Below, piece by piece: positions 5,569-56,665 of a DNA stretch of 64,000 bases (within the stretch, counting starts at the first letter, position 1; each line of letters begins with the position of its first letter). The DNA is from Echinarachnius parma (lineage: Eukaryota; Echinodermata; Echinoidea; Clypeasteroida; Echinarachniidae): positions 49,905 to 113,904 of the forward strand of contig JBAMJV010005542.1 in assembly GCA_037951105.1 (NCBI GenBank). The letters are read 5' to 3'. The position numbers and the translations under genes are program-made. Under the pieces are notes generated by a model. The model was not told the DNA's origin. It saw only the letters and a program-made list of their open reading frames with translations, and searched no databases.

Positions 5569-5849
5569 AGATATTAGACGGGGGTCACTGAAGAATGAAT
5601 GTTATAGCAATTATATCAAATTATCTCCAACCCGATAAAAATAGAAGTCAGCCACTAGGTAAACAAACACCTTTCCTACTTACCAGAAACATGAAGAGTG
5701 CTGGCATTTTGTACCCTTTTAGAAACAAATTGTCACCCATGCTTCCCCCGTACCACCTGAGAAAGATGTAAAATCAATATTGTTCAGCGAGAGTGAGAAT
5801 AATACGTGTGGTTTGCGGTTGCACCATGTGAGATGGGTGGATTGGTGAG

Positions 5850-6168
5850 TCCTGAAAAGGACTATGGTAGTCCTAGAAAGGACTGTTGGTGTAGTCCTGA
5901 AAAGGACTGTTGGTATTCTTACTAGGAGAGTCCTAAAAAGAACTGTTAGTAGTCCTAGAAAGGACTGTTGGTAGTCCTAGAAAGGACTGTTGGTAGTCCT
6001 ATAAAGGACTGTTGGTAGTCCTAGAAAGGACTGTTGGGATAGTCCTGAAAAGGACTGTTGGTATTCTTTCTAGGAGAGTCCTAAAAAGGACAGTTGGTAG
6101 TCCTAGAAAGGACTGTTGGTAGTCCTAGAAAGGAATGTTGGAATAGTCCTGGAAAGGACTGTTGGTAT
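5850..6168 (+). repeat. 22-bp minisatellite with internal dyads
   Basis: About fourteen units of AGTCCTAGAAAGGACTGTTG with variants (GAAAAGG, TAAAAAG). Each unit has the self-complementary AGTCCT...AGGACT, so the block could form repeated small hairpins. Confidence 0.92.
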
Positions 6169-20100: not shown

Positions 20101-23100
20101 CAGGAAGCGTTGCAGAGAGACTGGGCTTTGATATACAAAAGATGGAGTCAAGGTAAGGAAAAGAAAATTATGCAATTTATTTCATTTTTTGATCGCAGGT
20201 CATACAACAGTTGGGTACATTTGGTCGGGTGTTAAATAAGCCTGAGCAGCTAGGGCTAGTCTATTATGCTCCCCAGGGAGTTAAGAGGGTGCACAAGATA
20301 ATTGTGTGGGTTTGAATTGTACCTGATGGCCAAGGGTAATACAAATTGATACAGTGCTTAAATAGAAACCCTGTTTTAAGTGCTATATAAATGCAATCTA
20401 TTATTATTTGTATTATTATTACTCTACATGCTGTTTTGCCTGATATTTTTATGGTACAGTGATTATCTATAGTCCTTACCAGTCGACAGTCATTGTTAGT
20501 AAAAAAAAAGGGCCCTGTAGTAAATCTATGGGATTTCAAAATCCAGTAGGGAACATGTTAACCCATGTCCTATGGGAACATGGTGAGCCCTGAAATAAAT
20601 CTATGACATTGCAAATCTAGTAGGGAATAGGTTAAATGAACTGGTAAGAAAAGAAAATGCTTGATAATCTGAAAAATGAATTCCTTTCTTTCTTTCCTCC
20701 CTCGATGTGTTCAGGTTGGAGCTACTGGAGAAAAAGGTGCTAGTCGATGGCGGAGAAATCCCCACGGTCGTCTATGAACTCCGCAATAAAGTAGAAGATT
20801 TCAGGGACAAACTTGAGGTAAGACTATACCAGAAATGAGTTAAAGCCAAATAACGGTATTGGGGAAACGCCTGACACACAAAAAATGAAAAATACGCTTT
20901 TATCACCTACCATGTGAAATAATATATCATATCTTGGCCCCGTTGCAGAAAGACATATAATCGTTTGTAAGTTACAATTAATTGTAAGTCAGATCATGTG
21001 TTCTAAATGCGCAAATCTGATTTGTTGAAACGTGCAAATTTTCTGACTTACAATAAATTGTTAATTACAATCGATTGTATCTCTTTCTGCAACGGGCCCT
21101 TATCTGTTAATGTAAAGATTTGGACAAAAGCTGCTTTGAATTTGACTATTTGAGCAATAAAATGTTAGAAATGAAAAAGTCTTATTACCATAGACTCAAT
21201 TCAACTACACGTATGCTGCTTGCAAAAGCTACGAAGCGCATGTAGCACAGCATGCAGGCTTGTCAACTCTTGAGTGATTTTTGTTAAATTGCACAAAGAT
21301 AATGGATCAAATCAATGTCATTGCCCATGAGTACTTAATTTGGATTAACATGCATTCTTTATAGACCCCAGCCCTGGGCCAGAGTCCTGAATGGGTTAAA
21401 GGGTACCACCATCCAAAAAATAATTTTCTTTTTAACAGGTAACATTTTGAGTAGTCCATTCCTCTAAAAAGTTCAGAAGAAAAGGTTTTTAGAAAAATTA
21501 TATAATTTAAGCAAAAGGCATCACCATACTATAAGATGTGTTCAGGGGTCTGCATACGAAGACTACCTTTTGTCTAGGATGAATGCATCGTCCGTGATTC
21601 TATTGTCTCCAAACGTACGCGTGAATAGAATTGGCGCATTTGCAAATGTTTGGCGCGTACGGAACCATGAAATAATAATGGTTCCGTAAGTGGTGGAAAT
21701 TAATTGCATTGTTTATGAATTACACATCCCTTTGCAAAATTGTGGGTATCTATTTGATATCGCACAACGGTACCAAAACATTATGTGTTGTTCTTTGCCT
21801 GGTGGTCCCCTTTAACTATCTTCCTTGTTCAGCTATCTCAATCCACACTGGGATTGAGTATTGTGTTTCTCACGATTTATTACCCGTCAACACCATCCCA
21901 GGCTTCATTTTCCCTGCCCTCTTGAAAGTGGCGTCATGGGATAAACATGCCTATGCCTTTCAATAACTTTTTGTCCATTTTTTTTCTTTTCTGTCAGACA
22001 TTTTTCGACATTAAAAGTGGCTTCACCATTCATAACTTGTCACTCTTTATCAATTTTCTAAGTGGAAATTTGTGGAACTTTAATCCCAGCATCACTCATG
22101 CTTTTTTCGCCCCTACATTTAAGAATGCCTTTTTAAAGTGAAAGTTTTCCCCATAAAATTCAGCATCACTCATACATGTACATAGCCCTTCATCTTTATG
22201 ATTTTCATTTTCTTTGTCCAACCTGGTATTTTGTTGACCTTGATTCTCACTTCACTCATTCATTACTCTTCGCTGTTCAATATCACTTCTTTTTTTCCCT
22301 TTTTTTATTAAAGTGAAAATTTGTGCTTTTAAAATCCAGCATCACTCATGTATAGCCCTCGTTTTAGATAACTTTTCTCTTTTACCGTCTGTTATGTTTT
22401 GAACTCCTGCAAAAAAAACTCGGGATTCTAGGTTCTAAATATAGACTGTTGATACATTTTGTATACCGGTACATACACATAGATCATTCATTGAAGATTT
22501 CGTGTGTACATGTAACTGTGAACATATTAAAAGTCTCTTTTTACATTTTTTTTTTCATTCCTTTTTACCATCTCTTCACCATTTCTTCATCTCATTTTCC
22601 GATGAGTTTGTGGCCAGCTCACAGAACCTGTTGCATTTTTACTACAAACAAAAAAGAGACTCTACAGTTCATAATGAGAAGGGAAATTTGATGAAGGTAT
22701 TGAGTAGAATTTTGAACATTTTCATTGTCTCTTTAATAACAGAGCGTTGAACATTTCAGCTGGCTGGGACTAACAAAAGAGTTTGTGGCCTGCTCCCAGA
22801 ACTAGTTGCCTTTCTACAAACAAAAAATCATATTCTTACTAGGGATTTTAAAAGGATAAAACATTGATTTAATCAAAATTTGCATGTCGATTTTAAAAAA
22901 GGAGGTTTTACATTTTGATTTCTCTTCTCACAGAGCGTTGAACACTTAAGCTGGCTGGGCCTAACCAAGGAGTTTGTGGCCAGCTCTCAGAACCAGTTGC
23001 CTTTCTACAAACATAAACTCATGTTCTAACTAGGGTCTTTTAAAGGATAAAACATGGATTTAATCAAAATGTGCATGTCGATTTTTAAAAAGGAGGTTTT

Positions 23101-24403
23101 ACATTTTTATTTCTCTTTTCACAGAGCGTTGAACGCTGGCTGGACTTAACCTAGGAGTTTGTGGCCAGCTCTCAGAAATAGTTGCCTTTCTACAAACAGA
23201 AATTCATGTTCTATCTAGGGTTTTTTAAGGATAAAACATGGATTTTATCTAAATTTGCATGCCGATTTTAAACAAGAAGGTTTTACATTTTGATTTCTCT
23301 TCTCACAGAGCGTTGAACACTTAAGCTGGCTGGGCCTAACCAAGGAGTTTGTGGCTAGCTCTCAGAACCAGTTGCCTTTCTACAAACAGAAACTCAGGAA
23401 GACGCAGGATGAGCAGAAGAGAGTCTGGGAGAAGTTCAGCAAGATCTCGTGAGTTGAACCCCCGCGAAACATTTTTAAAAATTGTTTAACTGTTTCTTTC
23501 CTGAACAGAAAACTTGAGTTTTCTTGGCTCAATCGTTGAGCACCGGTCTAGCAATGCCTGTAGATGTCTCTGGTTCGATTCCCGGCGAAGCCTATTTTTC
23601 TTTGCTCATTTTCAATCATAAAAAAAAAATAATGTCAAACAGAAATACAAAATTAATGGCGCTACTAAGCTTGATTCGCTTGACAAATTTCTCACTTGTG
23701 TCCAGCTGAGATTCACACAAGAGGAATTACTTTTTTGTTTTAATTTTAGCTGCCCGATCAGGCAATTAAACTAGACCAATGAACTTTGTCTTGCCCGACA
23801 TCAATTATAAACTAACCTGGACAATCGGGCAAGTGCTAGTGTTGTTAACTAAAGATGTGAAATTGTAAATAATTATGATTATAACTGGAAGAATAGAACT
23901 GCCCGTAGCACTAGAGTAGATCCTCAAGCTATTTCATTTCCATGATCTATTTACCCCCCCCCCCCCCATGAACAATACATTTCAGAAAACCTACATAGTT
24001 ACTTGTAGAGAATATTCTTCCGTTTTTTTCTGCAAATAAAGTGATGGGTCAGATATTAAAGAAGCCTCATTATTAAAAGCTTCGCTAGAAGATTGAGAAT
24101 GACATAGAGATATTCATCAGCTTTAAAAAAAAGGGGAATGATGAATGTTAGACGAAATTACCTACTAAGAGATTAAGGTGATTTTGTTTTAATACAAATA
24201 TTTATTTTTATGGAACGTGATGTTCAGTTGTAGACACAGTGAAGTGAGGGTTGATTGGATAAACTTCTGTCTGCCAGTTTTCCTGGAAGTTGGGTATGAC
24301 GTAGATATGACCAAAATCTTTGAAAGAAACATGTTCAAACGATTGGATTGGGGGCAAGGGGGAGGGCAATGACTCCCTGTCAGACTTTGTAACCTGTCAC
24401 CCC

Positions 24404-27400: not shown

Positions 27401-30400
27401 CTTTTTAGGTTGATTTTGTTTTAGCCTCTGATGAAGAAAAAAACTTAGGCCCATATTAAAGACTATTTTAGGACGTCAGAGTATGATGTAAATGAACTCA
27501 TACAGACATGCATGTGCCCCAAAACATTCTGATTTTTTGACTGAAACTATAAACTGGGCGTGACTCTGTTGATTGATTGCCATTAAGACATTTTTATTCA
27601 TAATCAAAATATTTGTCTATATTATTTATTTTTGTTGAATAGCAATTGCTGAATATGACATAATTTTGAAAGAAAATGACATGAGCTTGCCCAAATATGA
27701 CATGGGCTTCCCCGAATATGGTATGATTTCCCCCAAATTTGAGGTGAGTTGCCCGAATATGGCCATTTTCAAAACTCCGGGAGATAGAGGACGGAAGAGG
27801 AAGTACCAAGAAGATGAAATTGATGACTTTTGATGACATGTCTGAAAGGTCTGGGTGGGCTTAGTGAAGCAGGCGCAACATTCGATTCGACTATGACGTC
27901 AAGAGAGTAATGTATCTCATGTAGCTGTGCATGTGATTAAAGGACATACATGTAGCCAAGTGTACTAGTTACATTGTCCAAATCCACAAAACTTACTTAG
28001 AAATCTAGTGGTTCTATCATACCTCATTGTATTTGTATTACCAATAGGAGCATGGAACAGGTTTTGGTTATCCGAATTTCTCATTCGTTATAAAGATATG
28101 TATGATTGAAGTGTTGGAATTTGAAAGACTCTAGTGGAGACTTTAAACTGTGTGCAAAGTCAGTGCAATGATTTAGCAAATATCACTTTGCATTTTTGCT
28201 AATTTCTCAGTCATATAACTTTCATTTACTGTGGAATTTTCACACATCACTCAGTGGACATATCAGATTACAGAAATACACATTTCATTAACCCTTGTGC
28301 ACATGTCAACAATGTTACTTTACCCCTTATGAGGGCATAGAGGGAAGGGGGCAAGGTTTGCTTAAACTATCCACTCCTATATTCTCTTTCCTGTACATGG
28401 CGATACCGAACAAATCAAACGTAGAACTCCAACCAATGTTTCATAATAATAGAAAAAATAATAGTAGACCAGCATTTATATTGCACTATCAATCTAGAAA
28501 TTCTATTCTATTCCGAGGCACATTATACTATTTATGGTATAACCCTATTATTACCCTGGTTGAAGCCGAGCTGCCTTGCAGGCACATCACCAATAATTTT
28601 CGAGGTCGAGACCACTGGTTAAAAAGTGGACCCGAGACCGACAAAAATTGGACCTCTCTAAATTTGGGGGGTGCGTACGCCCCCCCCCCCCCCCCCCCCC
28701 CCCCCGGCTATGGGCATGGGATTATATTAAATTGGGATACATGTGACAAACTATCCTGTAATCTTTTTTTTTACCCATTAGAAACGTATCAAGTTGGGTG
28801 ATTACACACATTTCTCTGTATACTCTAGCTTAACTATTTTGGGGACCAATCCTGTATACTTGTATTATATATGTTAATCAGATTGAACTGTGTATTTGAA
28901 AAATGACACTAATTTCATGCATGGGATACAATTATGCATGTAAGATGAGGGTTTACAGTACGTACACATAATGTATGGTATACCTCCTCTAATTAATCTA
29001 CCACTTTGAGGCTAGATTTGTGGGATAAGCCCAGTGTTCTACGGTTTCACTGCTCAAAATAGAAAAATTAGTATTGGCTTCTATTCTTCATATACGATAC
29101 ATTTTTGCAGCGCTGTAGAGTGTATAAAGAACAAAGAAGTGTTCACCACAACCACATATTTCTGTGTCTCTTTGTCTCTTTGTATCAATCCATGCAAATA
29201 TTTTTGTTTTATCTTTGATTGTCAAAAACAAATGCATTTTGATGTGATTTATCATTTTTTTCTGAAGAAACTTTTCAGTTGAATTTTTGTTTATATTTTA
29301 TAATGGTTGCCTTCAAATTCAAACTGAATGAATGTGAAATCAAACATAAAGGCTTTCTTTGTTTCCTGTTTTGTTGATGTGGTTCTATTTGCTTCCCCCC
29401 TTCTTGTATTTGTTGCTGCCACATTTCAGCAGACACCTGCAGCTGACAGACGACATCAGGGAGTACCTCCGGCAGCCGACCTTCGACAACTGGCAGTGGG
29501 AGGACGCCGAGATGATGCTCCTGCTCCAGCAGATGTACCTCGACCTCGACTTCGTGGCCAAGTTCAACATCGAGGTAAAAAAAAGGTGGTGGTAGAGATG
29601 GTACGAGAGTGGTGTTACTGGTGGTGGTGTATGTGGTAGAAGTGATGATGATGATAATGATGATGATGGTGATGATGATGTTGATGGTGATGATGATGCA
29701 GATGATGATAATGATAGTGATGGTGATAATGATGGTGATGATGATGATGATGATGATGGTAATGATGCAGAAGATGACAATGATGTTGATGGTGATGATG
29801 ATGATGATGACGACGACGACGACGACGACGGCAGCGGCTATGATGATGGAGATATGTATGATTATGCTTCTTTGTTTACACATACAACTAGACAAATAAT
29901 GTCTATGTTAACATCTACAAATTGTTGTGGCTCAGTTAGATGTATTGTGATGATATTCTTTTTATTTTCATTTACAGATGCCAATTCTACAGAACTTTCT
30001 CTTTGAAGTGTTCAGGCATTACAACAACGTACCATTCCACAACTTCAAACACTGCTTCTGTGTCTCACAAATGGTAAGAGAAACTAATTATTAACCCATA
30101 TATTAACCCGTTCCCTTCGAGATTCTGAAATCTTCATAGACTTTGTACACAACCCACTTGGTTCCCGTATTCAAGGGGTTAAGACTGTTTGATTTTGTTA
30201 TAACCAGCATTTTCCATAGACCAAAAGCACTAGTAATTTTTTAACCACTCCTAAATTGGTGAAAACTATATATTTTGTATCGATTTCATAATTTCATAAT
30301 TTCATTATTGAAAATGAATAAAACCATATAAGATCAATTCTTCAGTTGCAAGACTGAGAAGCCTCTAGTTTCAAATGGTAACTTGAATCTGACACGTTTA

Positions 30401-33400
30401 TGCTTCAAACTTTTCACAGAATGCAGCTAGACCAATGGTAGCTACTTTGCTAGAAGAACCTGAGATAGGATTTTCTGGCCTAGCTTATGAAGAACAAAAA
30501 ATGCAGAAATAAAACCAAACAAACAAATGTGACTGGATATAGCAAAACCCTGCACTTGTCGGTAATACATGTTTGGAAGAAATAGGCATTTTAAATTCAC
30601 ATAATGTATGTCAAAGACTTATGTTTGTAATATTTAAACAATCATATATTTGCTCAATATTGTTAGATTCTTTAGAAGAAGACATCAAATGAAAACTTAT
30701 GATGAGGCCTTTCTCACGGCCTGAAAATCTACATTTTGATTTTACCGACAAGTGCAGGGGTTTTGCTATATCCGGTCACAAATGTCAGACATCTTTGGAA
30801 TTAAATCCTTCTAATCTATGCTTATTAGTTTCCCTCCTTCCATTCTTTGTAAATGTACCGTATGATCTAGCTGGTAGATTTAACCAATTTAAGCTATTCA
30901 TTTTCACTTTCTTTGTAGATGTACGGTATGATCTAGCTGGTAGATTTTACCCAACTAAAGCTATCTATTTCTTCTCACTTTCTTTGTAGATGAACGGTAT
31001 GATCTGGCTGGTAGATTTTACCCAACTAAAGCTATTTATATTCTTCTCCCTTTCTTTGTAGATGTACGGTATGATCTGGCTGGTAGATTTTACCCAACTA
31101 AAGCTATTTATTTTCTTCTCCCTTTCTTTGTAGATGTACGGTATGATCTGGCTGGTAGATTTTACCCAACTAAAGCTATTTATTTTCTTCTCCCTTTCTT
31201 TGTAGATGTACGGTATGATCTGGCTGGTAGATTTTACCCAACTAAAGCTATTTATTTTCTTCTCACTTTCTCTGTAGATGTACGGTATGATCTTGCTGGT
31301 AGATTTAACCAATACAAGCTATTTATTTTCTTCTCCCTTTCTCTGTAGATGTACGGTATGATCTGGCTGGTGGATCTACCCAAGAAGATTGGCGAATTGG
31401 ATTGTATGGTCATGCTCACGTCGGCCATCTGCCACGATTTGGACCACCCTGGCTACAATAATGCCTACCAGGTATTTAATACTGAAATACAAATCTGCCA
31501 AAAAAAACCAATCAATTAAATCAAGAACAATCAATTAAACTAGATTCAACTATGATTAAACCACCCTGGCTACAATAATGCCTACCAGGTAAGCAGTTGT
31601 ATATTCAAATACAAATCTGCAAAGAACAATCAATTAAATGAAGGGACAAACTTAATGGACAAAAAAACACCAATGAAATAATGCATATTAGGAATACGTT
31701 GAAATACAAATCTGCAAAGAAGAATCAATTAAACAAGATTAAACCCTGATTTGGACCACCCTGGCTACAATGATGCCTATCAGGTATGCAGTTGTATATT
31801 CAAATACAAATCTTCAAAAGAAGAATCAAATAAAACAACATTAAACTATGATTTAGACCACCCTGGCTACAATAATGCCTTGATTTTCATTTGTTTGTAT
31901 CACATCAAAAATAGGTGGAAAATTTGGAATAGAATTAGTGTTCGGCCTATATGTAATATTATCCTGCTGTGGCACACGTATGGTCGCTCACAACAATGGA
32001 ATATAGTCCAAAGGGTCTGTAGTGAACACCTAAGGGGGAAACAAGAACATGAACACATGGGTCCCGTTGCAGGAAAAGATGCAATCAATTGCAAAGTTGA
32101 AATTAATTGCAAGTCAGAAAATGTGCGCATTTGAACCAATGAGATGTGCGCATTTCTTCTTCTTCTTCTTCTTCTGGTGTAGTACAGTCCACCTACTGGT
32201 GTATCGCGTACTGGTTTGGCGGGCACAGTGCAGTATGTACAGTGCAATAATAAAATGACTAAGTTCTATGTGCATTTAAAAAGATGCTCGTCTCCCACTA
32301 ACGAAGCTGGGTTTCCTGTACCTTCTGCCGAAACTGGTCTACAGATGTGCAGTTGACCATGTCCTTTGGCAGAGCATTCCACAGTCGGATGGAGTCGGGG
32401 AAGAATGCTCGTTGGTACAGGAGAGTTCTTGCAAATGGAACAATGAATTTCTGTGTGTGTCCTCTTTGAGATGTTATTGCAGGTTGGAGATGTTCGCGTG
32501 GGATGTCGATGAGACAATGCACTATCCTGTACACCATCACCACCTTAAACTGGGCTCTCCGTTCCTGCAGTGTCGGCCACTGAAGTTGATGAAGCATTGT
32601 TGTGACACTGCTTGTACGTCGGAAGTCGTTGTATATGAACCGAGCGTAACGGCGTTGTATCATCTCCAGTTTGTTGATGTTTTTTTGGGTAGAGGGATCC
32701 CAGACTGTGCAGGCATACTCTACAATGGGGCGAATCAGAGCCTTGTAGCAAAGCACCTTCGTGTTGCGCGGACAAGGTCCGATGTTACGTTGCAGGAAGG
32801 CACTTGCAGAGCTAGCCTTTTTTGCGACAGCATTGGCATGTTGGTTCCAGCTCAGGTCTTTTGCTAGATGCACCCCAAGGTACTTGGCTGAGTCTGGGCT
32901 GTCAAGTGTGTGGTCATGGATTGTGTAGCGGAAGGTTATGGGCTTCTTCTTCTTGGAGACATGAAGTACTTGGCATTTCTTTGGGTTGAAATCCATTAGC
33001 CAATCCTTTTCCCACCTCTCGAGTGAGGTTAGGTCTTCTTGGAGTTGGGTGGCATCGGCTTCTGTCTTTATGTCTCGGTACAACATACAATCATCTGCAA
33101 ACAATCTCACCTTGGTGTTTGGTGATACGTACTCCGGGAGATCGTTAACGAATAGGAGGAAGAGGAGGGGCCCTAGCACACTTCCTTGGGGTACACCGGA
33201 TGTGACTTCTGATGTTTCTGAAGTTACTCCTTCCAAGACAACTTGTTGAGATCTGTCCTTGAGGAAGTTTCTGATCCAGTTATGAGTCGTGCTGGTAATT
33301 CCATAGAAGTCCAATTTATACAAAAGTCTTGCATGGGGAACCTTGTCAAAGGCTTTGGACAGGTCTAAGAGGATGACATCACTCTGTGCTCTGGAGTCAA

Positions 33401-36400
33401 GGCTCTTCGCTAGGTCTTGAATTGCCAGTATCAGTTGTGTCTCACATGAACGTTTCTTTCGAAACCCATGTTGAGCGTCAGAAAGAATCTTGGCCTCCTC
33501 AAGGTGTGACATCATGTTGCTCGTAACTATGTGTTCCATGATCTTGCAGGTGATTGACGTGAGTGAGATAGGCCTGTAATTTGCTGGCTTACACTTCTCA
33601 CCACTTTTGAATATGGGAGCAACATCAGCCTTCCTCCAGTCGTCTGGTATTTCACCCTGGTCAAGTGATGCCTGGAAGAGTAGTTTGAATACCGGGGTGA
33701 TTTCTAAGGCGAGCTCCTTCAGCAGTCTGGGTGGTATTCTGTCTGGCCCAGGTGCTTTGTAGATGTCCAAACAAGAGAGGAGCTTGTATACACCAGCAGC
33801 ACATATGTTGATGTGAGGCATTTCTGGATGTGGGCTCTTACCTTTGTCTTCGATGCTGGTAGCATCTTCATCATGGTTGAAGACAGACGTGAACTGTGAG
33901 TTCAGGATCTTGGCTTTGGTCTTGCTATCAGAAAACACGATTCCCTCGGAGGACTTCAGAGGAGCTACACCTGATGAGTCGCATTTCTTTCCATTTATGA
34001 AGCTCCAGAATCTCTTTGGGTTGCTTTTAGAGTCCGGGCTCACAATGTCGGTAAGGAAGTTGTTGTATGCTTGCTTGCATTCTGACCTACACTGTGACTT
34101 GAGATGCTGGTATCTCTTAAAGTCCTTTGCCTTCTTGGAATTCTTAGCCTTTGCAAAGCTTCTCTTTTTCCGTCTAGTAAGGCGTTTCACAGTTGTGGTG
34201 ATCCACGGCTGGTTAAATCGAGAAGACGTCATCTTGGATGGTACATGTCTGTCGAGAAGGAGGAGGAGGGTAGACTTGATGTCGTCCCACATCTCAGCGA
34301 TCGGGCTGTCTGTTTTGTACTTCTCTACAAATTTCAATTGAAAAGTCTTGCACTCTTCCCTCATGTCTTGCAGTTTTGCTTTTTTCCAGAGGTAGATTTT
34401 ACGTTTCCTTGGTTTGATCCTTCTGGGGGTGATATCAGTATCGACGAACACGATGTCGTGGTCACTGATGCCAGGGAGAGCAGCACAACGGTTGACAAGT
34501 GGTCACATGATCGTCATCATGGACAGGTACCATAAAACTGTTTTCTGTCCAGGGGATCATGTTTGCTGGCCACTATAGGCAGGTTGGCTGCTATAGACAC
34601 TTGACCACTAGGACAGGTTTGACTCTAGGGGTTCACTTTGGTGGCCACTATAGACAGGTTGGCTGCCATAGACATGTGACCACTAAGACAGGTTTGACTG
34701 AACTTGTATATAGCAGGAATTACACTTTCATAATGTGCTTGAAAAAACATTTTGCTTTAGTATAATTGGGGTACCCAACAATTATTTCTCATTAGGACCT
34801 TTATATTGAACTAGAAACTATTCATATCATAAGATACTTTACCTGACAACCCATCTTTCTCTTCTTCCTTCAGGTGAATGCGCAGACAGAGCTGGCGATC
34901 CGGTACAACGACATCTCCCCACTAGAAAACCACCATTGCTCAGTGGCCTTCAAAATCCTAGAGAAGGTAGGTAGAAAAAGCAGTGCCCACTGCTGCATTG
35001 TATGTTGGGTGATCCAGAACCTAATATCAAAGCCCTAACCATCGAGTGATATTGGTAGTCTAGCGTCCAGTAATCAGGAGGTCGTGGGTTCAAACCCCGC
35101 GTGCGTCTGCTTGTGATTATGTTTTTCATGAATTTGTTTCATCTTTGTTTGTCCCATTGCGAATGTTCAAGCCGTTTTCTTTTTTGACACAAACAAATTT
35201 TGAAACATCAATATTTTCAATCATCTTCATTGCACTCACATTATGTGGAAATAAATTGTTGTTAAACAAAACATTTCTTTGTCTCATGGCAGCCACACTG
35301 AAACAACTTGAGGAACCTTTGCCAGCAACATTCAATTCACCATCTTTGAGATATTACCTTTAACATACAAATTTACTTTGGTGCACCTATAGGGTTGCCC
35401 GCCGCTAGTATGCTCCCCGGGGAGTTGAGAATGTGTACAAGATAATTGTGCGGGTCTGAACTGTACCATATGCAGGGGTAATAATGCGCTTAGAGGCTGT
35501 TCTGCATTAGGCGCTATATAAGTGCGATATATTATTATTATTATTATTATATCCCTAAGTTGATGTCATATTCTGACCATCGAGCATTGAAAAGGGTTTC
35601 AGGGAATAGCCACCATTAATAGGGCCTGTGGCTCAATGGTTTATAGAGCACCAGACTAGCGATCCAGAGGTTTCGGGTTTGATTCCCTGCAAAGTCCAAT
35701 TTTCTTTGCTCATTTTTCATGTATATTATATTATATATTTCTGGTCAGTTTCCTCTATCGTTGTATTAAAAACAAAATATGCTATAATATTTTGTCTGTT
35801 AATTTTCTTGCACTAGCTCACACAATGAAAAAACAATTTCCTCACCGATTTATTATACAATACAAAGTTTATTGTTGTACTTTTGTTTACACCTTAACCT
35901 TTTACCTGTAGTTTGTATACATGTTATTGTTTTGAACAAAATATGGATATAAATAAATAAATACATATAAATAAAATAAATAAATACAATTATAATTTTG
36001 TGTTTGTCTCCTTGCAGCCACACTGCAACATCTTCAAGAACCTGAGCCCCGAGATGTTCAAGCAGGTGAGGGAGGGCATCATCCGCTGTATCCTAGCAAC
36101 CGACATGGCCAAGCACAACGAGATCCTCAACGGATTCAAGGACATCATCTCCACCTTCGACTTCAGCAATAAAAAACACAAGCACCTTGTAAGTCAGCAT
36201 GCCAGTTCATCTGCATTGCTATTTCATATAAAGGAATAACAGTTTAAAGGGATAGTTGAGTTTTGGTCAAACTGAATTTTAATAACCAAAAACTGCACCA
36301 TTCCAGTACAAACTAATATTTATAACTCCACATGCTCGAAAGGTATACACAATTACAAACGCCTAAGTAAAAACCCAGTTATCATTCAAAAAGAGCAAAG

Positions 36401-38393
36401 AGGGCACTACCAATACTCAAGTGTACCTTTAAACTGTTGATTTAAATACAAACATTTACCTTTAATTTTTGTTTCTTTCTGCTGTTAGCTCAGTGTTTGT
36501 CAGCATATTGTCACCTTGTAAGATTATATGCAATGCTCTCATCATTAACACTTTTAGGACTTGTCCCAAAACTTCTCAGGCTATGGGAACTATGACAAAA
36601 TTATTGAATGCTGAAATGAAAGTCTTGAACAGGTGGATAATAGACATTCCAAATAAAATGTTTTTCGGGTGGAATTCTTGCACATTTCCCCCCCCCCCCC
36701 CCCCCACTTCTTGTTTTCTCTCTTTTTTAGATTTTACACATCGTCTTCCAACAATTTAAAATTAAATACAAGCTGTAAAAATTGAATAAATTTCCACATT
36801 TTCTTGTAACATAATAGTGAAACAAAGGCACATGTACATAATTATAAATCAAATAAATCATGTATAGATCGAAAGTACAAGTGTAGAAACTGTAACTGTA
36901 GTAGCATGATCAATATCTCTCCTTAAAATAGCTATACCGGCGATGTAGCTCTTATTAGAGCTACAAGCTCCAGAAAAAATACCAACAGTCATTCTCAGCA
37001 CTCTCCAAACCTCCTCTCTCACATGGTGCAACCGCAAACCAAACTTATTATCAATATCTTGTGGATTTGTTTCACTTTTTTTGCATTCATTAGCTGACCA
37101 CCATCTGCATCAAGGTAGCCGACATCTCCAACGAGGCCAGGCCGATGGATGTGGCCGAACCGTGGATCGACTGTCTGCTGCAAGAGTTCTTCAATCAGGT
37201 CAGTCCCACTTATTAACTTTCATGTCGGTAAAAGTGGTTATCAGCAGGCGCCGATTAATAGCTCTACTAGTGCAACAAGGCTACTGCGTTGTCTAATTTC
37301 ACATACTTATTTCATGGACAGAGGGAGAGAGACAAAGCATACATCTCAGAAAAACCTTCATTTTTATAATCAATTTGAAATGGAAATATGAAATTCATCT
37401 GACAATGATATATAAATCAAAATTTGGTTGATTATTTATGCCCTTTTTCGACAGAGTGACATGGAGAATTTAGAAGGTCTCCTTGTGGCTCCCTCCATGG
37501 AAAGGGAGAAGGTGACGAAGCGTACATCCCAGAAAACCTTCATTAATGGAATTGATTATGGATTTGACAATCAATCATACATGTAGATCTGTTAATCAAT
37601 AAATCACTATATTTGTTCACTATAATTATGAAATATATCCATCTATTTTGTGTGTTTCTTGACAGAGTGACATGGAGAAGCTGGAGGGTCTCCCTGTGGC
37701 TCCCTTCATGGACAGGGATAAGGTGACGAAGCATACATCCCAGACGGGCTTCATCAGATTCGTGCTCCTACCACTCTTTGAGGCTCTTGGCGTGCTCTTC
37801 CCAAAACTTGACGTAAGAAACTGATTATATTTCATTCAGTATTTTTAAAGTTAAGTTGCACTGAGATAATCTTGAACCATTTGCAAGTATCAAAATATTA
37901 TTGTATCATTATGATGTGTTTTCTACTTATACAGTGTTTCATTTTAAGGCTTTTTTTTACTCATTTCTTCCCGGACCAGGAACATATCATCGAGCCTGTA
38001 AGGACGGCGCTGAAGTACTACTCCGAGATGGCCACAGCCCTGGAGGAAGAGAAGAAGAGGAGCCACGAGAGGCGAGACTCGCTCACCAACGGCAACAACA
38101 GTGGCAGCAACCCCGCCACAAACTCAGGCAAGAAGAACATTGAGGCAAACACCTCCGCCACATCCTCGGGCTCCAAGAACGGGAAGCGTGTCTCCATAGG
38201 GAGCAGTGGGGGGAGCGGGGTAGGGGTGGGGAACAAACCGGGGGCACAGATGACCCCTAACTCAACGGCGCCTACAACATCACAACCCACCGGCGGAGCA
38301 AAGTTTCCCAACAAAGCGACCACAACTGCCTCTTCGTCGACGTCGACGTCTTCATCTAACCTGGGTGTGAAGTCGACGACGATGACCAAATGA
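16989..38393 (+). CDS. PDE9A: cGMP-specific phosphodiesterase 9 homologue (12 exons seen, 5' end missing)
   Basis: Hydrolyses cGMP to GMP in the cytoplasm or nucleus (family knowledge). Exons: 16989-17138, 20104-20152, 20715-20817, 23309-23448, 29430-29574, 29978-30073, 31349-31471, 34874-34966, 36018-36188, 37094-37198, 37666-37812, 37980-38393. All introns are GT-AG and phases join exactly, giving 578 residues from a split first codon. The PDE catalytic domain covers about residues 150-465. Catalytic and metal-binding residues, numbered from the first visible codon, are H217, H221, H257, D258, H261, D367 and Q418. They match human PDE9A2 H252, H256, H292, D293, H296, D402 and Q453 at a constant offset of 35. 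Residues 1-147 resemble the PDE9 N-terminal region and a helical segment. Residues 467-578 are a Ser/Thr/Gly/Asn-rich tail. The first coding exon, which must end with one base of a split codon, was not recognised. The odd feature is tandem partial duplication of exon edges around three exons. Confidence 0.95.
17139..20103 (+). other. PDE9A intron: polypurine block and ATCC microsatellite
   Basis: 17580-18530 is almost all A and G. Inside it a ~175-bp unit is tandemly duplicated (18185-18356 and 18361-18530, sharing AACACATATGAAGAAGGAAG). 19003-19189 is (ATCC)n with few interruptions, followed by C-rich DNA to 19275. No coding exon was recognised. Confidence 0.8.
19003..19189 (+). repeat. (CATC)n tetranucleotide microsatellite
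   Basis: Over forty CATC units, with a CTTTCCTT break near 19036-19044. Frames give Ile-His-Pro-Ser or Met-Asp-Gly-Trp runs, which are artefacts. Confidence 0.97.
20104..20152 (+). CDS. PDE9A: PDE9A exon b (short helical exon)
   Basis: Very short exon (49 nt) between acceptor AACTACAG and donor GTAAGG. It enters with two bases and leaves with two. It encodes [16 protein letters not shown], the start of the helix preceding the catalytic domain. It is supported only by phase fit and similarity to the human VANHLAVLEKRVE region. Confidence 0.8.
20259..20410 (+). mobile_element. SINE/LINE tail with (ATT)n
   Basis: GCTCCCCAGGGAGTTAAGAG to GTGCTATATAAATGCAATC and TATTATTATT. Homologue at 35388-35550. 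Confidence 0.7.
20512..20637 (+). mobile_element. TTAA micro-elements, family 1 (partial plus full)
   Basis: A 3' half ends ATGTTAA near 20562 and is immediately followed by TTAACCCATGTCCTATGG to GGGAATAGGTTAA. Confidence 0.7.
20715..20817 (+). CDS. PDE9A: PDE9A exon c (coiled-coil-like helix)
   Basis: Acceptor GTGTTCAG and donor GTAAGA; 103 nt, leaves in phase 0. It encodes [15 protein letters not shown] followed by a charged helix ending in FRDKLE. It matches the human LEKRVELEGLKVVEIEK region, which lies just before the catalytic domain. Confidence 0.88.
20936..21099. mobile_element. Palindromic MITE with CCCGTTGCAGAAAGA ends
   Basis: GGCCCCGTTGCAGAAAGA and TCTTTCTGCAACGGGCCC are near-perfect inverted ends. 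The interior halves mirror each other (TTACAATTAATTGTAAGTC / CTTACAATAAATTG). Half copies at 32063-32155 and at 63957-64000. Confidence 0.88.
21330..21399 (+). mobile_element. TTAA micro-element, family 2, partial
   Basis: TTAACATGCATTCTTTATAG to AGTCCTGAATGGGTTAA. Confidence 0.65.
21400..22600. other. PDE9A intron, T-rich, with loose CAGCATCACTCATG repeats
   Basis: Degenerate tandem segments with AGCATCACTCATG near 22087, 22162 and 22337, and AAGTGAAA(A/G)TTT. No exon visible. Confidence 0.5.
22604..23308 (+). pseudogene. Tandem array of partial exon-d copies (decoy acceptors)
   Basis: Copies begin after CAG acceptors at 22743, 22934 and 23125 with a period near 190 bp, and lead into the true exon at 23309. 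A more decayed fragment lies at 22604-22660. Each unit has a pyrimidine tract, an acceptor, about 90 nt of exon and about 95 nt of intron-like spacer. In the exon frame copy 1 stops at codon 21, copy 2 stays open for 31 codons then stops at 23027, and copy 3 has a deletion and an early stop. None keeps the exon's own donor. Confidence 0.9.
23309..23448 (+). CDS. PDE9A: PDE9A exon d (linker; last member of a tandem exon-edge array)
   Basis: Acceptor TCTTCTCACAG, donor GTGAGT, 140 nt, leaves with two bases. It encodes [14 protein letters not shown] through [10 protein letters not shown], the linker before the catalytic domain. It is the only copy of a four-to-five-member array that continues through to a donor and stays open. 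The earlier copies at 22604, 22743, 22934 and 23125 are truncated or carry stops. Confidence 0.92.
23521..23605 (+). mobile_element. tRNA-headed SINE
   Basis: Pol III box A TGGCTCAATCG and box B GGTTCGATTCC are about 45 bp apart, followed by CTTTGCTCATTTTC as in the copies at 35621 and 56566. Not a functional tRNA: the acceptor stem does not close. Confidence 0.75.
23745..23850. mobile_element. Fragment of the CAGGGCTC hAT-like family
   Basis: GCTGCCCGATCAGGCAATTAA and CGGGCAAGTGCTAGTGTTG resemble the element at 5372-5568. Confidence 0.5.
24400..24855 (+). repeat. Cluster of four poly(C) tracts
   Basis: C-runs at about 24403-24437, 24549-24573, 24687-24703 and 24837-24852 in C/T-rich context. 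Confidence 0.95.
24925..25100 (-). mobile_element. SINE/LINE tail with (AAT)n, reverse
   Basis: AATAATAATGTTTACAATTT, ATAGCGCCTAGGG and ACATTATTACCCCGGTCATC; as at 2578. Confidence 0.65.
25695..25745 (+). repeat. (CA)n microsatellite
   Basis: CACACACAAACACACACACA and onward, about 45 bp. Confidence 0.95.
26431..26600. mobile_element. Two adjacent TTAA micro-elements, family 2
   Basis: TTAACCCCTTCATGACTGG to CTTCAATGGGTTAA, then TTAACCAGTGTCTAAG to GGAATAAGTTAA. Confidence 0.65.
27668..27770 (+). repeat. Short tandem repeat, ~21-bp unit
   Basis: About five diverged units of GAATATGACATGGGCTTCCC type. Confidence 0.7.
27955..28320 (+). mobile_element. Relic of the AGGGATCTAGTAAC MITE
   Basis: Aligns by eye with 39155-39517 (ATTGTCCAAATCC, AAAACTTACTT, CAGTGGACATAT). 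The ends are eroded. Confidence 0.7.
28678..28706 (+). repeat. Poly(C) tract
   Basis: About 27 C in a row inside the intron before exon e; it produces a Pro-run frame. Confidence 0.97.
29430..29574 (+). CDS. PDE9A: PDE9A exon e (start of catalytic domain)
   Basis: Encodes [19 protein letters not shown] and the following W-rich helix to FNIE, corresponding to human IEALRKPTFDVWLWEPNEM. Donor is GTAAAA. The acceptor is a tandem CAGCAG (29427-29432). Use of the first AG gives Ser-Arg-His; use of the second drops the Arg without changing frame. Immediately downstream is a GAT-type microsatellite (29640-29850). Confidence 0.94.
29638..29850 (+). repeat. (GAT)n / (GAC)n trinucleotide repeat just after exon e
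   Basis: Interrupted GATGATGGT units ending in a GAC run. Met-run and Ile-run frames through it are artefacts. Confidence 0.96.
29978..30073 (+). CDS. PDE9A: PDE9A exon f (catalytic histidine motif)
   Basis: Acceptor ATTTACAG, donor GTAAGA, 96 nt, phase 0 at both ends. It encodes [21 protein letters not shown]. The motif HNFKH carries the catalytic His (217) and a metal ligand (221), equivalent to human HNFRH. Confidence 0.96.
30104..30182 (-). mobile_element. TTAA micro-element, family 1
   Basis: TTAACCCGTTCCCTTCGAG to TATTCAAGGGGTTAA, reverse orientation; followed directly by a family-2 fragment (TTAAGACTGTTTG). Confidence 0.75.
30853..31348 (+). repeat. 72-bp tandem array of exon-g acceptor plus first codons
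   Basis: Copies start at 30853, 30919, 30990, 31062, 31134, 31206 and 31278, and the true exon is at 31349. Each unit reads [18 protein letters not shown] and further, ending in TAG. That TAG is also the AG of the next acceptor. The pyrimidine tract TTCTTCTCCCTTTCTTTGTAG-like is kept in all but the first. The unit is a multiple of three in the central copies, so any upstream acceptor would add an in-frame stop. Confidence 0.93.
31349..31471 (+). CDS. PDE9A: PDE9A exon g (HD metal-binding motif), flanked by duplicated edges on both sides
   Basis: Acceptor CTCTGTAG, donor GTATTT, 123 nt, phase 0. It encodes [10 protein letters not shown] at its start and [16 protein letters not shown] at its end, the HD metal-site signature (H257, D258, H261). 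Upstream are seven tandem copies of the acceptor plus first codons. Downstream are two copies of the last codons that keep a donor, and a third that is cut short. It is chosen as the true exon because only here do both edges occur together with an open frame. Confidence 0.96.
31550..31880 (+). repeat. Array of exon-g 3' edges with donors
   Basis: Three copies of the segment coding for the end of [13 protein letters not shown] occur after the true donor. Copies at 31559-31588 (followed by GTAAGC) and 31745-31783 (followed by GTATGC) keep a donor; the third (31849-31880) is cut before it. Spacers share AAATACAAATCTGC and AATCAATTAAA. Because the copies lack an acceptor-side half they look like decoy 5' splice sites. 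Confidence 0.9.
32063..32155 (+). mobile_element. Half of the CCCGTTGCAG MITE, cut by the LINE tail
   Basis: GGGTCCCGTTGCAGGAAAAG to ATGTGCGCATTTC, then the LINE (TTC)n tail. The other half is not found past the LINE's 5' end. Confidence 0.7.
32155..34495 (-). mobile_element. 5'-truncated CR1/Rex-like non-LTR retrotransposon
   Basis: Minus-strand LINE inserted in the PDE9A intron between exons g and h. The 5' end is lost inside the endonuclease domain: upstream of the ORF the same frame continues through [20 protein letters not shown] and then meets a stop near 34495, where the sequence changes to an unrelated repeat. The 3' end is a (GAA)n tail (TTC repeat on the plus strand at 32156-32175), as in elements that end in short tandem repeats instead of poly(A). 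Confidence 0.9.
32298..34451 (-). CDS. LINE ORF2 fragment: reverse transcriptase
   Basis: An uninterrupted 717-residue frame. The first residues (FVDTDI) are the end of an apurinic endonuclease domain. Reverse transcriptase motifs follow in order: [10 protein letters not shown] (232-241), NYRPISL (291-297), DLSKAFD (363-369), [13 protein letters not shown] (419-431) and the catalytic FADD (451-454), then the thumb and a C-terminal part with SIRLWNALP. The Met at 34451 is only an internal codon, since the frame extends upstream. The lack of stops implies recent insertion, but without the endonuclease it should not be able to move alone. Lineage (CR1/Rex1-like) is by overall resemblance, not by phylogeny. 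Confidence 0.92.
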   Translation of the reverse strand: MFVDTDITPRRIKPRKRKIYLWKKAKLQDMREECKTFQLKFVEKYKTDSPIAEMWDDIKSTLLLLLDRHVPSKMTSSRFNQPWITTTVKRLTRRKKRSFAKAKNSKKAKDFKRYQHLKSQCRSECKQAYNNFLTDIVSPDSKSNPKRFWSFINGKKCDSSGVAPLKSSEGIVFSDSKTKAKILNSQFTSVFNHDEDATSIEDKGKSPHPEMPHINICAAGVYKLLSCLDIYKAPGPDRIPPRLLKELALEITPVFKLLFQASLDQGEIPDDWRKADVAPIFKSGEKCKPANYRPISLTSITCKIMEHIVTSNMMSHLEEAKILSDAQHGFRKKRSCETQLILAIQDLAKSLDSRAQSDVILLDLSKAFDKVPHARLLYKLDFYGITSTTHNWIRNFLKDRSQQVVLEGVTSETSEVTSGVPQGSVLGPLLFLLFVNDLPEYVSPNTKVRLFADDCMLYRDIKTEADATQLQEDLTSLERWEKDWLMDFNPKKCQVLHVSKKKKPITFRYTIHDHTLDSPDSAKYLGVHLAKDLSWNQHANAVAKKASSASAFLQRNIGPCPRNTKVLCYKALIRPIVEYACTVWDPSTQKNINKLEMIQRRYARFIYNDFRRTSSVTTMLHQLQWPTLQERRAQFKVVMVYRIVHCLIDIPREHLQPAITSQRGHTQKFIVPFARTLLYQRAFFPDSIRLWNALPKDMVNCTSVDQFRQKVQETQLR
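34515..34700 (+). mobile_element. AGTCAAACC MITE with doubled right part
   Basis: GGCCACTATAGGCAGGTTGG and GGCCACTATAGACAGGTTGG lie 74 bp apart, both leading to ACAGGTTTGACT. It borders the 5' end of the LINE. Confidence 0.75.
34874..34966 (+). CDS. PDE9A: PDE9A exon h
   Basis: Acceptor TTCCTTCAG, donor GTAGGT, 93 nt, phase 0. It encodes [21 protein letters not shown], almost identical to human [20 protein letters not shown]. It is separated from exon g by an antisense LINE. Confidence 0.96.
35038..35550 (+). mobile_element. Composite SINE: tRNA-like head and (ATT)n tail
   Basis: Box A-like TGGTAGTCTAGCG and box B GGGTTCAAACCCCG at 35038-35113. A tail at 35388-35550 has GCTCCCCGGGGAGTTGAGAA, GGCGCTATATAAGTGCGATA and (TTA)n. 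Whether head and tail are one unit is uncertain. Confidence 0.6.
35552..35745 (+). mobile_element. tRNA-Ala-like SINE with upstream leader
   Basis: A leader (CCTAAGTTGATGTCATATTC to GGTTTCAGGGAATAGCCACC) precedes a tRNA-like head at 35621-35696 with box A GTGGCTCAATGG, loop CTAGCGA and box B GGGTTTGATTCCC. Then comes TTTTCTTTGCTCATTTTTC. Leader, head and tail recur at 56459-56665. Confidence 0.75.
36018..36188 (+). CDS. PDE9A: PDE9A exon i
   Basis: Acceptor CTCCTTGCAG, donor GTAAGT, 171 nt, phase 0. It encodes [18 protein letters not shown] and [13 protein letters not shown], matching human ILATDMARHAEIM. M330 corresponds to human Met365 of the active-site pocket. Confidence 0.96.
36248..36428 (+). 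mobile_element. Internally deleted copy of the AGGG(G/A)TAGTT MITE
   Basis: TTAA at 36244-36247 and 36429-36432 bracket 181 bp. Both ends match the ~550-bp family (AGGGATAGTTGAGTTTTGGT; CTACCAATACTCAA) but the middle is gone. Confidence 0.85.
36694..36709 (+). repeat. Poly(C) tract
   Basis: About 17 C within the intron between exons i and j. Confidence 0.9.
37094..37198 (+). CDS. PDE9A: PDE9A exon j (ADISNE metal motif)
   Basis: Acceptor CATTCATTAG, donor GTCAGT, 105 nt, phase 0. It encodes [17 protein letters not shown] and [10 protein letters not shown]367 is the distal metal-ligand Asp. F389 occupies the position of human Tyr424, a residue noted for inhibitor binding in PDE9. Confidence 0.95.
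37310..37665 (+). pseudogene. Partial exon-k copies
   Basis: A copy after acceptor TTCGACAG at 37455 reads [20 protein letters not shown] and stays open for 43 codons to TAG at 37584. A shorter remnant matching the middle of the exon lies near 37320-37360. The copy has lost the conserved TGFIRF part and has no obvious donor. Confidence 0.85.
37666..37812 (+). CDS. PDE9A: PDE9A exon k (invariant glutamine)
   Basis: Acceptor TTCTTGACAG, donor GTAAGA, 147 nt, phase 0. It encodes [20 protein letters not shown], then [17 protein letters not shown]418 and F421 are the purine-clamp residues (human Q453 and F456). A diverged copy with its own acceptor lies at 37455. Confidence 0.96.
37980..38393 (+). 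CDS. PDE9A: PDE9A last exon (domain end and low-complexity tail)
   Basis: Acceptor TTCCCGGACCAG; ends at TGA 38391-38393. Residues 442-465 ([17 protein letters not shown] onward) finish the catalytic domain. Then comes a basic/acidic stretch and about 105 residues rich in Ser, Thr, Gly and Asn, unlike human PDE9A. It contains RRDS (Ser 475) and KRVS (Ser 513), which fit PKA/PKG consensus sites. The tail is probably disordered. Confidence 0.93.
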   Translation, partial: EHIIEPVRTALKYYSEMATALEEEKKRSHERRDSLTNGNNSGSNPATNSGKKNIEANTSATSSGSKNGKRVSIGSSGGSGVGVGNKPGAQMTPNSTAPTTSQPTGGAKFPNKATTTASSSTSTSSSNLGVKSTTMTK

Positions 38394-56458: not shown

Positions 56459-56665
56459 TATCCCCAAGTTGATTTGTATCCTTCGGGTTTATGTCAGGTT
56501 CATAATAGCTTCTGACCATTCAGGCAATGAGAATTAAGGGGTTTCAGGGACGAGCACCGTCTAGGGTTTTCTATAGCTCAGTCGGAAGAGCACCAGTCTA
56601 GCAATCTGGAGGTCTCGGGTTCGAATCCTGTTGGAATCCCATTTTCTTTGCCTTCTTTTAATCAA
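56459..56665 (+). mobile_element. tRNA-Ala-like SINE with upstream leader
   Basis: Leader CCCAAGTTGATTTGTATCC to GGGGTTTCAGGGACGAGCACC; tRNA-like head 56566-56641 with TATAGCTCAGTCGG, CTAGCAA loop (anticodon AGC) and GGGTTCGAATCC; then TTTTCTTTGCC. The anticodon and T arms pair; the acceptor arm is imperfect. Confidence 0.78.

Follow-up and report, generated by a model that had tools for sequence, protein, structure and literature searches.

Why is a coding exon of a PDE9A gene preceded by a row of partial copies of its own beginning, and do these copies act on splicing or are they simply tolerated in the intron? The window, i.e., the whole stretch of 64,000 nucleotides that was analyzed, was searched for the gene, for further copies of its exons, and for the corresponding region elsewhere in the same genome.

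Eight PDE9A exons were placed between positions 29430 and ~38396 of the window by a tblastn search with human PDE9A as the query. When the eight predicted exons were joined at AG/GT borders, they gave a single open frame up to the stop, and this frame matched the PDEase_I domain (PF00233, E = 4e-88). In a comparison of a 102-residue piece with PDB, the best eight rows were all PDE9A (9.3e-47 to 2.4e-46), with the next family following at 1.3e-20. The gene had been called PDE9A in the first-pass annotation of this DNA, and these results show that the call was right.

The Tandem Repeats Finder analysis revealed a repeat with a period of 72 at 30843–31383 (7.6 copies, 93% matches, score 863), the downstream end of which is the beginning of a PDE9A coding exon. 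Seven partial copies, each comprising the 3′ splice site and ~35 nt of the exon, occupy positions 30853–31348 and precede the true exon. The repeat unit crosses the intron–exon border, as it takes in ~30 nt of the intron end and ~35–42 nt of the exon start, and the homology between the units and the exon extends ~35 nt beyond the splice site (31349–31383). The exon-start motif is found at the first position of each unit and of the true exon in Table 1, with spacings of 66, 71, 72, 72, 72, 72, and 71. The seven copies of the first-pass annotation were found together with all the junctions it had given, but its length of 72 bp applies to only four of the seven spacings. Neither do seven decoys stand in a row, as it had claimed: AG is kept in six of the seven upstream units, and the first unit reads GTAA, so that six intact decoy acceptors are accompanied by a dead one. 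The middle units are homogenised and the border units diverged. Namely, units 4 and 5 are identical over 72 aligned nt, unit 3 is 98% like both (98–100% among units 3–5), and the identity of unit 0 to the other units of the window is 66–75%. The decoys of units 3, 4, and 5 match the true exon exactly for 23 nt past the junction; therefore, short junction overhangs cannot separate them from it.

Table 1. Partial exon copies and the exon they adjoin in the window.
Feature	Positions	Strand	Remark
Unit 0, oldest partial exon copy	30853–30918	+	Acceptor lost (GTAA for GTAG); no AG on the other allele either
Unit 1, decoy acceptor and exon start	30919–30989	+	Stop 5 codons in, if used
Unit 2, decoy acceptor and exon start	30990–31061	+	TAG stop is the next acceptor
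Unit 3, decoy	31062–31133	+	Built like unit 2
Unit 4, decoy	31134–31205	+	Built like unit 2; same sequence as unit 5
Unit 5, decoy	31206–31277	+	Built like unit 2; same sequence as unit 4
Unit 6, 71-nt decoy	31278–31348	+	Frame shift, then TGA 31359, if used
True PDE9A exon, 123 nt	31349–31471	+	Phase 0, 41 codons, ending ...NNAYQ
Donor-side copy 1, exon end	31553–31588	+	Decoy donor CAG/GTAAGC, 12.0
Donor-side copy 2	31748–31783	+	Decoy donor CAG/GTATGC, 9.1
Donor-side copy 3	31850–31880	+	Ends short of the donor
Weak upstream copy, acceptor region of exon 36018–36188	35278–35318	+	85%, 41 nt
Weaker second upstream copy of exon 37666–37812	37311–37350	+	80%, 40 nt
Upstream copy of the start of exon 37666–37812	37444–37533	+	88%, 90 nt; own AG; on the other allele too

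The splice sites were scored with a matrix of human splice-site frequencies. On this human matrix, the six decoy acceptors scored 10.7–13.4 and the true site 13.6, and because these scores are nearly equal, local strength does not tell the decoys and the true acceptor apart. The donors inside the units are weak on the same matrix (4.2–5.7) and reach into the range of the true donors of this gene (4.8–9.9). Each of the seven upstream starts, were it used, would lead to a premature stop. In units 2–5, which read openly for 23 codons, the stop is the TAG of the next acceptor; in units 0 and 1, an internal TAG stops the frame after five codons, and unit 6 is out of the frame of the exon. The description of every unit as open until a TAG that is both the stop and the next acceptor thus holds for four of the seven units. 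Likewise, the expectation that any decoy use would give a premature stop in a defined place stands for all seven units with respect to the stop and for these four with respect to the place. It should be noted that with a TAG acceptor, a phase-0 exon, and repeat units of 3n nt, the TAG must fall in frame; that one triplet serves as both stop and acceptor would need no selection. We also weighed recursive splicing via the units and rejected it, since AG never directly abuts a donor GT in them.

The 3′ end of this exon, together with its donor, recurs at 31560 and 31755 and, in a shortened form, at 31857. These donor-side copies were absent from the first-pass annotation, and with them the same exon is repeated at both edges. 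GT is kept in two of the three copies. According to the human frequencies, the true donor CAG/GTATTT scores 4.8, the lowest value among the seven true donors scored, and is surpassed by the decoy donor at 31588. Splicing at the donor of 31588 or 31783 would bring a stop into the frame.

Upstream copies, likewise missing from the first-pass annotation, also adjoin two further exons of the PDE9A gene. Enrichment of copies at splice borders within the window was not significant, as 4 of the 15 splice points were spanned by a local direct copy versus 119 of the 1116 comparison points (10.7%, P = 0.068) lying more than 700 nt from the splice sites of this gene. Local direct repeats are, by the same count, common in the window also off the exons of this gene. 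The window is rich in local duplications; the array itself is beyond doubt, and that it sits on a splice border is less remarkable.

Several other features of the window were recorded. Tandem repeats of 237 bp × 2.8 (1621–2293) and 191 bp × 3.5 (22739–23396) have no exon identified nearby. Tandem units of ~22 bp at 5842–6167 match, on the minus strand, the histone 3′ stem-loop RF00032 four times, all below the gathering score (best 20.3 bits vs 34, E = 0.006). A tRNA-like match (RF00005, 44.7 bits) is located on the plus strand at 56569–56636.

The search of the genome (1.2 Gb, 14,790 contigs) showed that contig C3120 carries the PDE9A region too. It is collinear with the window from 20.6 to 42.9 kb, with an identity of 95.5% and 97.4% in two outer 6-kb blocks and of 82 to 92% nearer the array, and we read it as the putative other allele. 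With the true exon counted, the array has four units on C3120 and eight in the window (three versus seven upstream copies), and the donor-side copies differ from those of the window in number and sequence. The copy number of the array is polymorphic in this genome. Meanwhile, unit 0 of C3120 also lacks AG and is 97% identical to unit 0 of the window. The homogenised middle units, the conserved unit 0, and the difference between eight and four units make up the pattern that unequal exchange leaves in the central part of an array. The retention of at least two intact decoy acceptors on both alleles was counted against a neutral reading. The first-pass annotation had reasoned that an array absent or highly variable in other genomes, with no reads ever joined to the upstream acceptors, would be a neutral minisatellite; of this, variability was seen in part, as the eight versus four units of the two alleles, next to the abundance of similar copies across the genome. 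Another difference between the alleles concerns a PDE9A intron, the minus strand of which bears a reverse-transcriptase element with a 734-aa open frame (PF00078) at 32156–34500. The aligned part of the other allele jumps from ~32155 to 34500, and the insertion appears heterozygous.

Similar copies were found in other genes of the genome. With human ADH5 as the query, five partial upstream copies were detected at the Adh3 exon for residues 189–228 and two at the last Adh3 exon, in each case on both of two contigs. An allelic copy-number difference at the exon for residues 189–228 was rejected, as the five copies are present on both contigs. Three contigs bear Adh3 versions (C7084, C1748, and C2442; L032–L036). 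On C2442, the end of the exon for residues 115–161 is copied downstream, and tblastn showed no such copy in the other two.

A PDEase_I search of the genome gave 57 matches, the best 30 of which were analyzed; after merging by eye, they represented 21 distinct exons. A copy was considered local when it lay within 1.5 kb, and the controls were length-matched segments of the same loci avoiding the exon and its copies. Local partial copies were found at 13 of the 21 PDE exons and at 142 of the 525 control segments (P = 0.0011). With at least 85% identity over 40 nt, the counts were 10/21 versus 61/525 (P = 8e-5), and with 90% identity over 40 nt, 6/21 versus 38/525 (P = 0.004). Leaving out the two exons of the window gene gave 11/19 (P = 0.0054, with the controls of those two loci still included). 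A first count of 19/30 loci versus 181/600 controls was superseded when allele-like loci were merged and the controls overlapping exon copies were dropped. One copy, that of L059, was assigned by the local-copy count only. Two of the loci, L042 and L044 (C9183), represent a second PDE9-like gene with upstream copies at its exons, L044 having a donor-side copy as well. Local copies were seen at 3/6 chaperonin exons (upstream of two and downstream of the third) in a sample of 8 of the 63 matches analyzed with no matched control. That similar partial exon copies are common in the genome is as expected of a by-product.

The copies at the PDE exons are distributed unevenly between the two exon edges. 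An upstream copy starting at or before the acceptor was seen at 12 of the 21 exons versus a downstream copy with the donor at 2 of the 21 (P = 0.0025). Under a stricter criterion, by which copies had to reach 8 nt to either side of the border, 8 of those 12 remained, giving 8/21 versus 2/21 (P = 0.067). The borders of L041, L044, and L046 were off AG in the automated count and were judged from the alignments. The acceptor bias may thus be taken as a lead, not as a result. Together with the excess at exon edges, it is not predicted by plain random duplication, and both were counted against a neutral reading.

For 16 exon–copy pairs, we also compared the differences per site that change the protein with the silent ones. 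A neutral copy set against a constrained exon is expected, by our own estimate, to show a ratio of roughly 0.4 to 0.5. The ratio was 0.25 overall, including the three copies of L058 (0.06, 0.07, and 0.29), and 0.52 for the copy of exon 7 in the window. The majority of the copies appear to fit neutral relics, and L058 does not. At this locus (C2689:26706–29831), copies at locus positions 995, 1140, and 1325 precede the exon at 1513 and are without a proper exon end. Two of the three show 11 synonymous versus 2 changing differences, which is not predicted for a neutral relic and was counted against the neutral reading. The units of the window array, with 2 silent and 0 to 3 changing differences per unit, are too few in their differences to judge constraint. 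A comparison of intron flanks was mixed, as the similarity of some flanks, but not of others, falls below that expected from twice the divergence of the exons.

In our judgment, the array is very likely a tolerated minisatellite spanning an intron–exon border, of the kind called mirages in amphioxus, for which no regulatory role is needed. The difference in unit number between the alleles, the middle units being most alike and the edge units most diverged, and the intact frame given by the true sites all support this reading. A local duplication would have copied the intron end and ~35 nt of the exon; unequal exchange or slippage would then have multiplied the middle units, and the unit number would drift. 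Judging from the open reading frame, splicing would pair the innermost acceptor and donor, i.e., would define the shortest exon, and with this pair in use the spare copies would stay intronic and cost little. If a decoy were used by leakage, a premature stop would follow, and the product would presumably be degraded. The first-pass annotation had instead suggested that decoy use could lower the output by nonsense-mediated decay or slow splicing. In such a device, the upstream acceptors would attract splicing factors or undergo low-level splicing, and either premature stops and decay would reduce the output of PDE9A or the intron would be removed slowly, as with a decoy or poison exon. The stops predicted from all seven units, the acceptors near the strength of the true site, and the decoy donor stronger than the true one, both on human frequencies, agree with it. 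Decoy exons that promote intron retention do exist in human genes, OGT and others (PMC12017769, in excerpt), and there, as here, intronic splice signals are able to compete with the true sites and the product has a premature stop. The decoy exons of that excerpt, however, are recognised via their own 5′ splice sites, whereas the units of the window consist of an acceptor and a truncated exon and, with only weak inner donors, would hardly be complete exons. A decoy or poison exon would also be conserved in sequence and number, but the units number eight and four on the two alleles. Moreover, the stops come about in three different ways, and similar copies stand beside many unrelated exons; a tuned device is made less credible by the allelic difference and by the many copies in other genes, and we consider it improbable. 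No positive support for lowered output or slow splicing emerged from the analysis.

Still less probable is that the copies are coding exons used alternatively or in a mutually exclusive manner in place of the true exon start. Such exons are also tandem copies of exon sequence, units 2–5 are open over their 23 codons, and the copies of L058 differ mostly at synonymous sites. Mutually exclusive exons are of full length, though, and the units have ~35 of the 123 nt, end in a stop, and possess no proper donor; the copy of exon 7, with the ratio given above, reads into a stop. We regard this as the weakest of the explanations, next to which stands a hardly more plausible one, an assembly artefact in the form of a wrong repeat number or an array made by the assembler. 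Short near-identical tandem units are indeed hard to assemble, and the two contigs differ in their number. Nevertheless, the units are set apart by substitutions as well as by differences in length, some of 1 nt and some larger, the other contig has the same array with variants of its own, and the copies of exon 7 and Adh3 occur on both alleles. A stronger competitor, although we still hold it to be rather unlikely, is copying directed to 3′ splice sites, in which duplication would begin in the pyrimidine tract and proceed into the exon (e.g., by template switching there), with upstream copies of exon starts far outnumbering downstream copies of exon ends. The acceptor-side excess among the PDE exons and the excess over controls that persists at 85% identity or more suggest it. 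In spite of this, the significance of the bias is lost under the 8-nt rule, some exon borders were set by eye, and the loci are paralogues, two of them from the gene of the window itself. Copies of a constrained exon also stay recognisable for a longer time than those of introns, and an unequal tolerance of acceptor and donor copies would give the same picture. The broader proposition, that exon starts with their 3′ splice sites are copied into the preceding introns at a large share of exons, with transcripts routinely carrying several strong decoy acceptors from which the innermost pair is chosen, is a tentative one, to which we give slightly more credence than to directed copying but which we still doubt. 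As for the array, it is a real and variable exon-border minisatellite, probably a neutral one, and as a single locus it is most likely ordinary.

The systematic position of the host was derived from its mitochondrial genes. COX1 was found on contig C14600 (19,741 bp), where it has AAA at the second Asn of PRMNNMSFW, AGA at Ser positions, and TGA as Trp. ATA occurs at 18 COX1 sites, many of which we take to be conserved as Ile. On the same contig, Pfam matches were obtained for ND4L, COX2, ATP6, COX3, ND4, ND5, cytochrome b, ND1, ND2, and ND3, and ND6 was recognised by eye on the opposite strand. The order on the minus strand is 12S, a tRNA cluster, ND1, ND2, a gap of ~1.5 kb, COX1, tRNA-Arg, ND4L, COX2, ATP6, COX3, ND3, ND4, ND5, (ND6), and cytochrome b; the gap between ND2 and COX1 fits as a candidate for 16S. 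AAA as Asn is specific to echinoderms among deuterostomes and ATA as Ile is common to hemichordates too, and ND4L and ND4 are adjacent in cephalochordates and separate in echinoderms (PMC2697986, in excerpt). Echinoids and holothuroids have one common gene order, from which asteroids differ by an ND1/16S exchange (PMC7947835, in excerpt). The code and gene order of C14600 are those of an echinoderm, with the order of echinoids and holothuroids; the COX1 residues have, tentatively, a holothuroid look. Amphioxus, suspected as the source at first on account of the mirage papers, was rejected on the AAA, ATA, and AGA readings and on the run COX1, tRNA-Arg, ND4L, COX2. A search for the GFP family gave no match, which carried no weight, as the controls were negative too. 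The high end of the contig repeats the part from cytochrome b to ND4 with broken frames, as if the circle had been assembled past its start from noisier reads.

Mirages are minisatellite-like duplications of intron–exon borders described in the amphioxus globin genes BflGb6 and BflGb9 (PMC3087553, in excerpt). A further one is known in PGBD5 (PMC3902484, in excerpt), and those of Adh3 (Canestro 2002) and troponin C are cited in the excerpts of the same two papers, where undisturbed splicing is reported or cited for amphioxus mirages. The units of BflGb6 number six and three on different haplotypes (PMC3087553, in excerpt). As far as these excerpts go, the array of the window resembles the mirages in several respects. 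The tandem units consist of an intron end with an exon start or of an exon end with an intron start, and either exon edge can be affected; many units, though not all, keep AG or GT (here 6/7 upstream and 2/3 downstream); the haplotypes vary in unit number; the middle units are homogenised and the border units excluded from this; and Adh3 bears such copies in this genome as in amphioxus. The differences are that the host belongs to the echinoderms and not to the cephalochordates, that both edges of one exon are repeated, and that copies stand beside a large share of the sampled exons, mostly on the acceptor side. In addition, RT-PCR is reported for the amphioxus globins in the excerpts, whereas splicing in the window is predicted from DNA. 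Intron gain by the tandem duplication of AG/GT sites, an idea cited in PMC3087553 (in excerpt), shares with our case the duplication of exon-border sequence, from which new introns would be made. It differs in that no new intron has arisen here and the frame uses the original borders. No echinoderm mirage was found among the listed results of a literature search of open-licence papers, and the array of the window adds a probable PDE9A mirage in an echinoderm, a lineage for which this search gave no report.

Exon-border repeats of this kind set equal splice sites in competition within one natural transcript, and should splicing in many genes keep to the innermost pair alone, this would be direct natural evidence for exon definition. 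As the individual is heterozygous for eight and four units, the effect of decoy number would be measurable between two alleles in one cell. An echinoderm rich in mirages would show that the phenomenon known from amphioxus is not confined to cephalochordates. The acceptor bias, if it holds, would ask for a mechanism. Should the widespread acceptor-biased copying of exon starts prove true, it would suggest that 3′ splice sites have a mutational mechanism, or a rule of tolerance, of their own, and this genome would be a natural test bed for exon definition.
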